Shown here: piece by piece, positions 51,202 to 54,280 of the stretch | How the letters are laid out: each line of letters starts with the position of its first letter | Numbering within the stretch: the first letter of the stretch is position 1 | NCBI RefSeq assembly: GCF_035975855.1 | Contig: NZ_CP109055.1 | Span: 6,944,001-7,008,000, forward strand | DNA from: Streptomyces sp. NBC_01304 | Lineage (GTDB): Bacteria; Actinomycetota; Actinomycetes; Streptomycetales; Streptomycetaceae | Length of the DNA: 64,000 nucleotides | Direction: 5' to 3' | Position numbers and translations under genes: made by a program | Notes under the pieces: generated by a model | Told to the model about the DNA's origin: nothing | The model's database searches: none | The model's input: the letters and a program-made list of their open reading frames with translations, nothing else

Positions 51202-51279
51202 CAGACGTAAGGGACTTGGGCCCTGCAGGACGGCGGCCTGCAGGGCCTACAGAAACTGGTCGTCCAGGCCTTCGTGCGA

Positions 51280-52914
51280 TCAGGGCAGGGCGCGTCCTGG
51301 CTCCGGCACCGCGGCGGCCCCCAACTCCTGTGCCGTGACCGCGGTGTCATCGGCGATGAGGTGAGCGAGGAGGATGGCCGTCGCCCGCTTGCTGAGGGCG
51401 CGGGCCACGGTGACGAGGCGGCCGTGCTCTTCGGCGGGCAAGGACAGCGCGACGGCCGACGCCCGGCCGGGCATGCCGAGCGAGTAGGCGACGCACACTT
51501 CCTTGCTCGAGTACTCGAGGAGGTCGAACTGCGCGGCGTGAGGTCCGTGTCCATCGAGCTCCTCGACCAGGTCGCGGGGGTCGGTGATGGTTCGCTCGGT
51601 GAGCTGGATCGAGGGGTAGCGCGCCAGGTGCTCCATGCGGGTGTTGAAGTCGAGTTGGGCGAGGAGGCACTTGCCGACCGCGCTGGCGTGGCCGGTGTCG
51701 GTGAAGGGTGCCCACTCCTCGACCGGGGGAGCGGTGTGGCTGTACGCGGCATCGAGGATATGGATCTCCCCGTCGGTGTAACTGCTGAGGTAGATCGCGG
51801 CGCCGAGTTCGTCGCGCAGCTCGGCCAGCGCTCTCTGGAGCAGGCCGGGGTCCCGGTGCGTGGTCATCCTCATCACCGCACCGGCGTGGTGAGCACCGCC
51901 GACAGTGGTGATGAGGCCCTGGTCCCGCAGCCAGTCCAGCAAACGGATGGTGGTGTTCATCGACATGCGTGCCCGCTGCGCGAGGGCGTGGGTGTCGATG
52001 CCGTCCGCGCTGTTGATGAGGTGCAGCAGATCCCTGGCCTGCTGCGCCGCCTGCCATGCGCGGGGTGGCGTGGTGAGCTCCGGGCGGTTGCGCCCCATGT
52101 CGTTGAGGACGGCCGACCGCAGCGCGTTCGCCGACCACCACGGCTCTTGCGACGTTGCCGGGGAGCCATCGTTCGGGATGCCGGGGCCGATCTGCATGTC
52201 GCGGTCACCGGGGAGCCAGAGCGTTGAGGCGTGCCGTCGCAGACCGGCGGAACTGCGTTGATCGTCTGTGTGATTCGGGGGTGGCACCATGCGTTCGTGG
52301 CGGGCCTCCCTTACCAGGGGCGGCAGCGGAGGGGCCGGCACGGGGACCAGTTGCGGGGGACCGACCGCCGTGCCGGGCTCGGGCGCGCGCTCCGAAGGCA
52401 CCTCTTGCGAGGCCGGCAGGTCCTCGCTGACGCCGAGCAGGCGGCGGGCCTCGTCGAAGTATTCGACGTCCTCGACCGGCGGAGCCTCCGCTTCCGTGGT
52501 GGGGCGCCGGTGGGCGAGCGAACGCAGCAGCCGGGCCGCGTCTCCGTGCCCCAGCCGTGCAGACTCGGCGATCAGGAACCATGCGTCATGGGTCCAGTCC
52601 TGGCCGGCCCGCAGAGCCACAACGGCCAATCGGAACAGTGCTCCTGGGTGGCCGGACGCAGCGGCGTCCCCCAACCAGTCGGCCGCCTGCTGCAGTTCAC
52701 CGCGTGCCAGTGCGCGCGAGCCCAGCCGGTACAGCGAGTTCGCCTGCTGCCGCACCGAGCGATCCGGCTCCACGCGCTCGGCCGGGCCGCCGAAGTCACC
52801 GTCGGCGCGGCACCAGTAGTCCGGCGGTCCCGCCAACCTGCCCATCAGTTCCAGGAGTCCGGCAGGGAGAGGTGGTGCCTGGCCGCTGTCACTGCCCTCG
52901 TTGAAGTGGCTCAC
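51280..52914 (-). CDS. Sel1-like repeat / IclR-type regulator fusion
   Basis: 544 residues. Residues about 55-135 contain Sel1-like helical repeats (LYRLGSRALARGELQQAADWLGDAAASGHPGAL and a second unit). A Pro/Glu-rich linker follows to about 275. Residues about 285-345 are a winged helix (IDTHALAQRARMSMNTTIRLLDWLRDQGLITTVG), and about 355-535 an IclR effector domain (TGHASAVGKCLLAQLD, KEVCVAYSLGMPG). IclR regulators normally lack such an N-terminus. GTG 52914 overlaps the sigma-factor stop (GTGA), so it is coupled to the sigma gene. It may bind sigma, or sense a metabolite and tune the sigma regulon; both are inference. Confidence 0.85.
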   Translation of the reverse strand: MSHFNEGSDSGQAPPLPAGLLELMGRLAGPPDYWCRADGDFGGPAERVEPDRSVRQQANSLYRLGSRALARGELQQAADWLGDAAASGHPGALFRLAVVALRAGQDWTHDAWFLIAESARLGHGDAARLLRSLAHRRPTTEAEAPPVEDVEYFDEARRLLGVSEDLPASQEVPSERAPEPGTAVGPPQLVPVPAPPLPPLVREARHERMVPPPNHTDDQRSSAGLRRHASTLWLPGDRDMQIGPGIPNDGSPATSQEPWWSANALRSAVLNDMGRNRPELTTPPRAWQAAQQARDLLHLINSADGIDTHALAQRARMSMNTTIRLLDWLRDQGLITTVGGAHHAGAVMRMTTHRDPGLLQRALAELRDELGAAIYLSSYTDGEIHILDAAYSHTAPPVEEWAPFTDTGHASAVGKCLLAQLDFNTRMEHLARYPSIQLTERTITDPRDLVEELDGHGPHAAQFDLLEYSSKEVCVAYSLGMPGRASAVALSLPAEEHGRLVTVARALSKRATAILLAHLIADDTAVTAQELGAAAVPEPGRALP

Positions 52915-53525
52915 ACCCGTCCCCCGTCCTTCTTCACGCATCGGTTCTTGCTCCGGTGCTGGTCTCTGATGAACTTCGCCAGCGCCTGCCGGAGAGCGAC
53001 CACCGCCTTGTGCCGGTCCCGATGGATCTGGTCGGCGCGCATCCCGAGGACAGTGGCGATCTCGAGGTCGGTCATCCCGCGGCTCTGCAGGTCCACCACC
53101 TGTCGGCGTTGGCTGGGTGGCATCGCCTCGATCGCCGGCCACACCAGGTCCTCCAGGACGTCGACGCTGTGCACCGGTGAGTCGTCGTCGCGTTGTTCCG
53201 GCAGGATCGCCTGCAGATCATTTCCGACCAAGTCCAGCCGTCGATGCGTACGCAGACGGTCCCGGGCGAGGTTCCATGCGGCTGTTGCCAGATACGCCCG
53301 AACGTTGACATCGTCGTCCAGCTCACCGGCTTGGAGACGTCGTGCCACGCTGAGGAAGGCTTCCTGCGCTATGTCCTGGCAGGCGTGGAGCGACAGCGTT
53401 CTGCCTGTCCTCCTTCGCAACGACCGGGGCATGTAGTTCATGAACGGCTCGTAATAGTCGAGCAGTTGCTGCCCCGGGCCGCTGTCCACGGCGAAGCTCT
53501 CTGAACGCGCCTCACCGCCTACCAC
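52911..53525 (-). CDS. ECF-type RNA polymerase sigma factor
   Basis: 204 residues. Region 2 is visible at about 25-95 (LLDYYEPFMNYMPRSLRRRTG ... CQDIAQEAFLSVARRL ... VRAYLATAAWNLARDRLR) and region 4 at about 135-190 (AIEAMPPSQRRQVVDLQSRGMTDLEIATVLGMRADQIHRDRHKAVVALRQAL). No anti-sigma factor of the usual zinc type is adjacent. GTG 53525 follows AGGAGGGG. The gene overlaps the small protein before it by 15 bp and the Sel1-IclR gene after it, so three products are made together. Target promoters are unknown. Confidence 0.85.
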   Translation of the reverse strand: MVGGEARSESFAVDSGPGQQLLDYYEPFMNYMPRSLRRRTGRTLSLHACQDIAQEAFLSVARRLQAGELDDDVNVRAYLATAAWNLARDRLRTHRRLDLVGNDLQAILPEQRDDDSPVHSVDVLEDLVWPAIEAMPPSQRRQVVDLQSRGMTDLEIATVLGMRADQIHRDRHKAVVALRQALAKFIRDQHRSKNRCVKKDGGRV

Positions 53526-53784
53526 GGAACCCCTCCTTCGCACGGGTGCAGACGACGCACCTGGCAGGCCCCGGCCCGACGTGAACGGTGATCGCGACGT
53601 CCTGAGTGCCAAAGACGTCCACCCGTACGCCCGGTTCTGTCTGCCCGACGGCAGGAGCCCGTGTCGCCGGCCCCCTCCCGGTCCGCTGCCGTTCCGGACG
53701 GCCGGAAAGCAGGGCGGCAAGCACGGGAGCCAGACCGCTCACCACGACCGAGGCAAACCCGGCCCAATCGAAGGACGCCGTCAT
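53512..53784 (-). CDS. Small membrane-associated protein preceding the sigma factor
   Basis: 90 residues. A hydrophobic segment at about 10-28 (FASVVVSGLAPVLAALLSG) is followed by an Arg/Pro-rich linker and a short beta-like stretch (VRVDVFGTQDVAITVHVG), ending near a CVVC pair. I do not recognise a family. ATG 53784 has GGAG about 10 nt upstream. Overlap with the sigma start argues it is real and functionally linked; a membrane anchor or an anti-sigma-like role for such a peptide is possible but unproven. Confidence 0.6.
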   Translation of the reverse strand: MTASFDWAGFASVVVSGLAPVLAALLSGRPERQRTGRGPATRAPAVGQTEPGVRVDVFGTQDVAITVHVGPGPARCVVCTRAKEGFRGRR

Positions 53785-54280
53785 GTGAGTTGATCTCCAT
53801 CCATTCCGAAAGGACGCGCATCACGCTTCACCCTCCCGACGGCCCACCACGCCCTGTTCTCCCTCCGGGATCACAAGCAACCTGGAAAAGACAGCTACGG
53901 ATGCGGATGCGATCGGAAGTGCGCGAGGGCTGGAAGGTGTGGTTCCAAGGGGAGCTCCGGTGTGTGCTCCAGGGCAGGCAGGGCCTTGGGAGGCACCTGG
54001 TGTCTCGTGCCTGATGCCTGATGCCTGATGTCTGGTGCCTGGCTGGGCATGCTTGCTCTGATCCAGGCCTCGCGCAGCGCGGCAACCGCGGTGCGGGCCT
54101 TCGCGGGAGCCATCCTCATCGTGTCGGCGGCGAGTTGGCGCACCCGGATGGATCTCACCCGAACCCGATCCAAATATTTCGCGGTTCGGAGGTCTGCGAA
54201 TGTCGAGAACGTGCCACCGGCTCCGTCCCAGGGACATCAGCGGCCACCACCGGCCGCACGACGAAGAAGGAGAAGCCAGC
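53785..54280. other. 496-bp divergent intergenic region with heptamer repeats
   Basis: It contains five 7-bp tandem units of the form TGCCTGR (54008-54042) and promoters for both directions. Minus-strand open frames here are repetitive and lack ribosome sites, so I do not call a gene. The heptamers translate to repetitive peptides in every frame, consistent with non-coding slippage sequence. Confidence 0.55.

Follow-up and report, generated by a model that had tools for sequence, protein, structure and literature searches.

The 64,000-nucleotide stretch of DNA analyzed here (the window; Streptomyces sp. NBC_01304, NZ_CP109055.1, positions 6,944,001–7,008,000) carries three overlapping genes on its minus strand, encoding a small protein (P0003), an extracytoplasmic function (ECF) sigma factor and a protein (P0001) that joins Sel1/TPR-like helical repeats through a linker to an IclR-type region (Table 1). 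The defining couple is the sigma factor and the Sel1-like domain. Since IclR is absent or replaced in some relatives while the Sel1-like domain stays, the latter is the constant partner; the IclR part is dispensable and exchangeable. This dispensability is new, as is an ECF-type promoter that varies with the sigma subgroup; the promoter, and hence autoregulation, was absent from a preliminary description of the locus. Sequence comparison suggests a self-contained module in which an ECF sigma is autoregulated and has a Sel1-like protein as its dedicated regulator, a reading to which, taken as a whole, we give an even chance.

Conservation of the sigma factor and its probable Sel1-like partner

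The window sigma factor scores above cut-off with Sigma70_r2 and with the NCBIfam sigma70-ECF model (residues 20–182). It has sigma2 and sigma4 regions and no sigma3, as expected of an ECF factor, and may already carry a group number in the 2021 ECF reclassification. The Sel1-like domain of P0001 is modelled as helix pairs that look repeat-like, in a confident block of the AlphaFold prediction (Table 1). TPR models match its relatives with a best E of 1.6e-5, and a structure search barely covered the domain. Further along P0001, an IclR_C effector domain match was found. The IclR helix-turn-helix profile reaches 10.6 of the required 22 bits, and a winged helix is present in the predicted model; some relatives, P0130 among them, have a PF09339 entry.

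Full-length relatives of P0001 (E≤1e-50) occur in 15 of 392 Streptomyces genomes, and its N-terminal Sel1-like domain (E≤1e-9) in 16 of the 392, with 22 matches. A related sigma gene lies directly upstream of 18 of these matches, 12 with and 6 without IclR. A later scan, for which the promoter patterns had been fixed on the earlier loci, returned 14 loci, four of them judged duplicates by their identical leaders (L225, L227, L228, L238). A sigma gene was upstream in eight of the ten new loci, and seven of the eight had an expected promoter type. The preliminary description had called for a search across actinobacteria: the association proved to be conserved, within Streptomyces only (17 of 293 genomes from nine genera of the order, all 17 in this one genus). 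The relatives named in a protein search (7990 candidates scored) are likewise from Streptomyces among the matches listed, the best 120 of 194. The distribution is patchy and the module is often plasmid-borne. Matching plasmid records number 49, all below 60% identity and 15 of them at least 80% covered. No phage record matched, and a phage origin was rejected on that basis.

The small protein belongs to the conserved unit. A clear small open reading frame (ORF) precedes the sigma gene in 31 of 34 systems, the exceptions being L130, L047 and L113; in the last, a candidate was found by eye. Small and sigma genes overlap at all 32 junctions read, mostly via CCGTGGTAG or CCGTGGTGA, so the sigma start falls inside the 3' end of the small gene. 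Recurrence of this GTGGTAG/GTGGTGA overlap supports the GTG start of the window sigma. The sigma/Sel1 junction is of the four-nucleotide GTGA/ATGA type in 21 of 32 cases. An overlap was output for 31 of 32 by a rule that takes the earliest start; annotation gives later starts in some loci (L048, L134–L137), the L219 value comes from a wrong frame (annotation gives a 50-nucleotide gap) and the L220 genes abut. The junction count leaves aside L128, dropped because its sigma is in two frames, and L047 (small gene interrupted), L130 and L113, which were not entered. In one comparison of relatives, L136 and L049 were given starts 6 and 3 nucleotides too late, respectively. Natural interruptions occur: the small ORF of L047 stops early, and the L128 sigma and the IclR part of L131 each span two frames. 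The three coupled genes of the preliminary description are confirmed, by overlaps in the window and by junction overlaps that recur in relatives.

The IclR-less members include L050 (a plasmid of [Kitasatospora] papulosa), L123 and L124, where the partner, about 242–244 residues long, ends after the Sel1-like domain and linker, and no IclR match was found within the fetched stretch. Their sigmas form one clade (98/99) beside those of the IclR-bearing L046/L127, and thus loss of IclR is the simple reading. The clade keeps the small gene, the sigma, the Sel1-like domain and the promoter. Elsewhere the C-terminus is of another kind: HSP90-like in L114 (NCBIfam E 3.3e-12; 45.7 bits, far below the model cut-off of 455), kinase-like in L113 (30.0 bits against a cut-off of 31.7), and marked in L233 by the stretch GLGGQGKTRL, which we take to be P-loop-like (sub-threshold in Pfam). 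The C-termini of L115, L219, L220 and L240 have no domain assignment. The scaffold described at the outset, a ligand-type and DNA-binding-type protein coupled to a sigma factor, stands as far as the C-terminus of P0001 is concerned, and its IclR part turns out to be optional and exchangeable. In the non-IclR members L113, L114, L115 and L233, an insert similar to a P-loop (for example PTGSGKT or APMGGGKT; sub-threshold in Pfam) lies between the last Sel1-like helices. Repeats of ~28–32 nucleotides at ~60-nucleotide spacing, resembling a short CRISPR array, lie inside or across the frame of the kinase-like Sel1 partner (L113:5797–6000, genome G395).

Lone IclR relatives are common in Streptomyces, and this sigma was not found in the short stretches fetched around them. 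ABC genes that we assume to be EhuABCD-like adjoin three such copies (L062, L064, L066), which are relatives of the IclR part only. At two loci of genome G251 (L105/L116), a 167-residue Sel1-only protein without a sigma is followed by a presumed methyltransferase-like gene. A telomere-side subgroup of the module adjoins a helicase gene on two linear plasmids (L219, from S. venezuelae NRRL B-65442, and L220), and mirrored copies are found at both chromosome ends in G277 and G433. The plasmid of L134 carries, near its module member, a second sigma gene overlapping an SsgA-family-annotated protein (L134:1–1510, minus strand).

A promoter that changes with the sigma subgroup

The window promoter, GGGAGA-N16-CGTC, lies 5' of the small gene, and its distance to that gene is kept in relatives (leader of about 52–64 nucleotides). 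Exact GGGAGA was found in 22 of 32 upstream regions, with variants in four and other types in six. These six belong to divergent sigmas and read TTAAG or TTAAT with CGTA, CTATG or CGTC, or GGAAAG with CCGTA. The same scheme holds for three further plasmid loci (GTTAAG...CCTATG in L219 and L220, GGAAAT...CCGTAG in L221). On a sigma tree of 34 rows, the three promoter types need three changes, compared with a mean of 8.5 after shuffling (0 of 200 shuffles as low), and the GGAAA type corresponds to a single sigma clade (99/94). Such clustering is expected, because gene and promoter are inherited together. More telling, the −35 and −10 elements are rigid within a sigma subgroup and different between subgroups. 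That a rigid ECF-type promoter changes its form with the sigma subgroup makes it very probable that the operon is driven by its own sigma.

In many loci, palindromic or repeated boxes are found 5' of the −35 element. A role for IclR as reader of such a box is not supported, since IclR-less loci keep one. We consider binding of the IclR winged helix to the operon's own promoter somewhat doubtful. Most of the 32 leaders contain a short, hairpin-like repeat, variable in sequence, located about +8 to +13 downstream of the −10 element. Folded as single sequences, they have a mean z of −1.5, with 20 of 32 below −1. A conserved hairpin was rejected, as RNAalifold found no pair in a 31-sequence alignment and the window stem is weak; the leader hairpin may serve as a lead. 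Thirty loci with the promoter pattern were fetched from the window's own genome. Eight sites lie outside called ORFs, including the operon's own, and one other is 144 nucleotides before a called gene.

A glyoxalase-family gene lies upstream of the operon and a convergent MFS gene downstream. Each of the three operon genes has a plausible ribosome site by eye, and a scan for T-run terminators found nothing after the operon. No anti-sigma domain was detected in the four ORFs neighboring the operon.

Table 1. Coordinates of the operon features in the window.
Feature	Position	Strand	Basis
Small protein gene, 90 residues	53512..53784	-	read from sequence
ECF sigma factor gene, 204 residues, GTG start	52911..53525	-	sequence and family profile searches
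Sel1/TPR-like–linker–IclR protein gene (P0001), GTG start	51280..52914	-	
Sel1/TPR-like helical repeats, P0001 residues 51–132, constant part	52516..52761	-	model block, predicted local distance difference test (pLDDT) 88–97
Low-confidence linker, P0001 residues about 160–264	52120..52434	-	mostly pLDDT <50
Winged helix of IclR type, P0001 residues 284–343	51883..52062	-	model; weak by sequence
IclR effector (ligand-type) domain, P0001 residues 345–532	51316..51879	-	profile match and model
ECF-type promoter GGGAGA-N16-CGTC, 5' of small gene	53838..53863	-	recurs at equivalent place in relatives
Weak hairpin, 5' leader, position conserved	53816..53826	-	5 pairs, z −1.02 in window
Strong inverted repeat 3' of operon, possible terminator without T-run	51218..51247	.	

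Proposed mechanism and alternatives

In the mechanism we propose, the sigma would transcribe its own operon from GGGAGA-N16-CGTC, yielding, via the overlapping genes, the small protein, the sigma and a dedicated partner. The Sel1/TPR-like N-terminal domain of the partner would be its constant, sigma-facing part, and its pattern of conservation makes it the probable direct partner of the sigma. Given binding, inhibition appears somewhat more plausible than activation. Anti-sigma genes usually sit directly after an autoregulated sigma, and because the partner gene occupies this place, a soluble anti-sigma is preferred, one that would hold the sigma until its C-terminal domain receives a signal. 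This C-terminal domain would be an exchangeable input, represented here by a winged helix and an IclR-type ligand domain, and the IclR domain is rather likely to respond to a small molecule. The small protein might anchor the complex to the membrane or modulate it there.

The AlphaFold model of the small protein, of low confidence (mean pLDDT 58.6), predicts a helix (residues 7–27), a basic stretch and a β-hairpin (51–58/64–71). No Pfam or NCBIfam model matches it. A hydropathy of 1.6 is reached by 15 of 31 relatives, and membrane anchoring is likely in some members only. The anchoring role envisaged earlier is narrowed to that extent, while the protein's place in the conserved unit is confirmed. 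Its layout resembles EACC1; membership of that family was rejected, as Pfam EACC1 matched neither P0003 nor nine relatives and a profile comparison was negative (hhalign probability 2.4%).

Several observations weigh against the proposed module. The Sel1 assignment is weak by sequence: Pfam Sel1 has no match at E<1 in P0001, and 3 of 12 relatives match with a best E of 0.048, below any cut-off. No known anti-sigma domain was found in P0001 or P0003 with Pfam and NCBIfam; together with the neighboring ORFs, this bears out the earlier statement that the sigma has no recognizable anti-sigma partner. An upstream sigma is missing from two of the ten new loci and from 4 of the 22 N-terminal matches: a remnant in G004, an additional copy in G102 and two matches in G251. 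The TTAA promoter type is not one clade on the sigma tree, and common descent would in part account for the co-segregation of the Sel1-like hub and promoter with the sigma. Across the whole genome, the promoter pattern shows no clear enrichment (38 sites, compared with 25 for the reversed pattern), and thus no regulon beyond the operon was identified. Finally, none of the 33 aligned sigmas has the first acid at the position matched to the DAED motif of sigma2.2 (described in section 3 of the ECF review, PMC8999054).

This last feature bears on the best-surviving alternative, in which the Sel1-like protein is a co-activator of a weak sigma, recruiting or stabilizing the sigma–polymerase complex upon ligand binding, with the winged helix as a DNA tether in IclR-bearing members. 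The aligned residues are ACQD in 14 of 33 sigmas and ACED in six, with Cys second in 25. The same part of the review describes EcfP, which is without DAED and inactive until modified (PMC8999054). The missing acid would also fit a sigma needing help, and a winged helix is indeed predicted in the P0001 model. However, Asp is fourth in 31 of 33, and such variation occurs in active sigmas. Moreover, tethering by IclR cannot be essential because IclR-less members retain the same promoter. We regard a co-activator as unlikely.

Less probable again is a polymorphic conflict-type module of plasmids and chromosome ends, whose constant core and swapped sensor or effector C-termini would guard against invaders or competing replicons. 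The exchange of C-termini, the patchy distribution, the full-length plasmid matches and the telomere-side and mirrored copies are all consistent with it, and published EACC1/EACC2 systems share its logic (PMC7159879, PMC8195603). On the other hand, nuclease, peptidase and toxin domains are absent from the window genes, profile comparison does not place the small protein in EACC1 and phage records do not match. A known defense system was rejected, as the PADLOC library gave weak partial matches only. A classical repressor, in which the IclR protein represses the operon promoter, the Sel1-like repeats only oligomerize and the sigma has no protein partner, is improbable: IclR regulators usually target promoters close to the gene that encodes them and boxes lie upstream of −35 in many loci, but the IclR-less clade keeps the same box and promoter, one box type is found with different recognition helices, and the domain never lost beside the sigma is the Sel1-like one.

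A second Sel1-like family and relation to known systems

The plasmid locus L136 contains a second operon, in which a short hydrophobic ORF accompanies a further ECF sigma and a Sel1-like protein of another family. Relatives of this second family are present in 13 of 41 genomes. In 15 of 18 loci, including L199 in the window's own genome, the gene immediately upstream encodes the related sigma (L202 and L217 have none there, and in L218 only broken pieces lie further off); a short hydrophobic ORF is present in seven of the 18. IclR is fused to the second-family partner in L213 (same place as L061), L060 and L078/L125. Homology between the two Sel1-like families was rejected (hhalign probability 1.5%). 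Because these families are not detectably related while their sigmas are (hhalign probability 95.7%), the ECF sigma/Sel1-like pairing, and the addition of IclR, seem to have arisen at least twice. We tentatively propose that Streptomyces has its own class of modular sigma cassettes with swappable sensors (IclR, HSP90-like ATPase, kinase-like and others), spread by plasmids and chromosome ends, and that a second Sel1-like family, unrelated in sequence, entered independently into a pairing with an ECF sigma of its own and likewise gained IclR.

Many ECF sigmas have no known regulator, and the module with a Sel1-like regulator offers a defined, conserved candidate partner together with a readable promoter for each sigma subgroup. 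Natural IclR-less members separate the sensor from the sigma partner, and the S. venezuelae NRRL B-65442 plasmid carries a member with a different C-terminal type. If the Sel1-like domain controls the sigma, new switches could be built by exchanging sensors, and members with IclR would allow direct small-molecule control of a sigma factor.

Titles and abstract openings in the literature gave no description of a sigma/Sel1-IclR arrangement, and no IclR or Sel1 partner is named in the tables of the ECF review or in its section 3 as far as 3.4 (PMC8999054). Canonical ECF sigma/anti-sigma operons share with this one the ECF sigma, an autoregulatory-looking ECF promoter and an overlapping partner gene directly downstream; they differ in that the partner here is a Sel1/TPR-like protein with an IclR or other C-terminus and no recognized anti-sigma domain, and in that an extra small gene comes first. 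ECF42, covered in the same review, also links an ECF sigma to a TPR-type protein-interaction module, as a C-terminal extension of the sigma, whereas here the repeats are in a separate, coupled protein with a sensor domain. Transcriptionally regulated groups in that review, ECF203 among them, resemble the window locus as Streptomyces ECFs without an anti-sigma and with a conserved DNA-binding-type regulator nearby (TetR in ECF203); in the window locus, that kind of domain is joined to a constant Sel1-like domain and can be dispensed with. EACC1 two-gene systems (PMC7159879) have a small single-helix protein with β elements, a layout predicted at low confidence for the small protein here, together with a constant core and variable C-termini as in the present module, and EACC2 neighborhoods (PMC7159879, PMC8195603) have an ECF sigma and a TPR protein nearby; unlike them, the present module has no caspase, and its small protein fails the EACC1 homology test. 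The predicted winged helix and effector domain share the fold of T. maritima IclR (1mkm), TtgV and PcaR; in contrast to those regulators, the IclR region here follows Sel1-like repeats and a long linker in one fused protein and belongs to a sigma operon.
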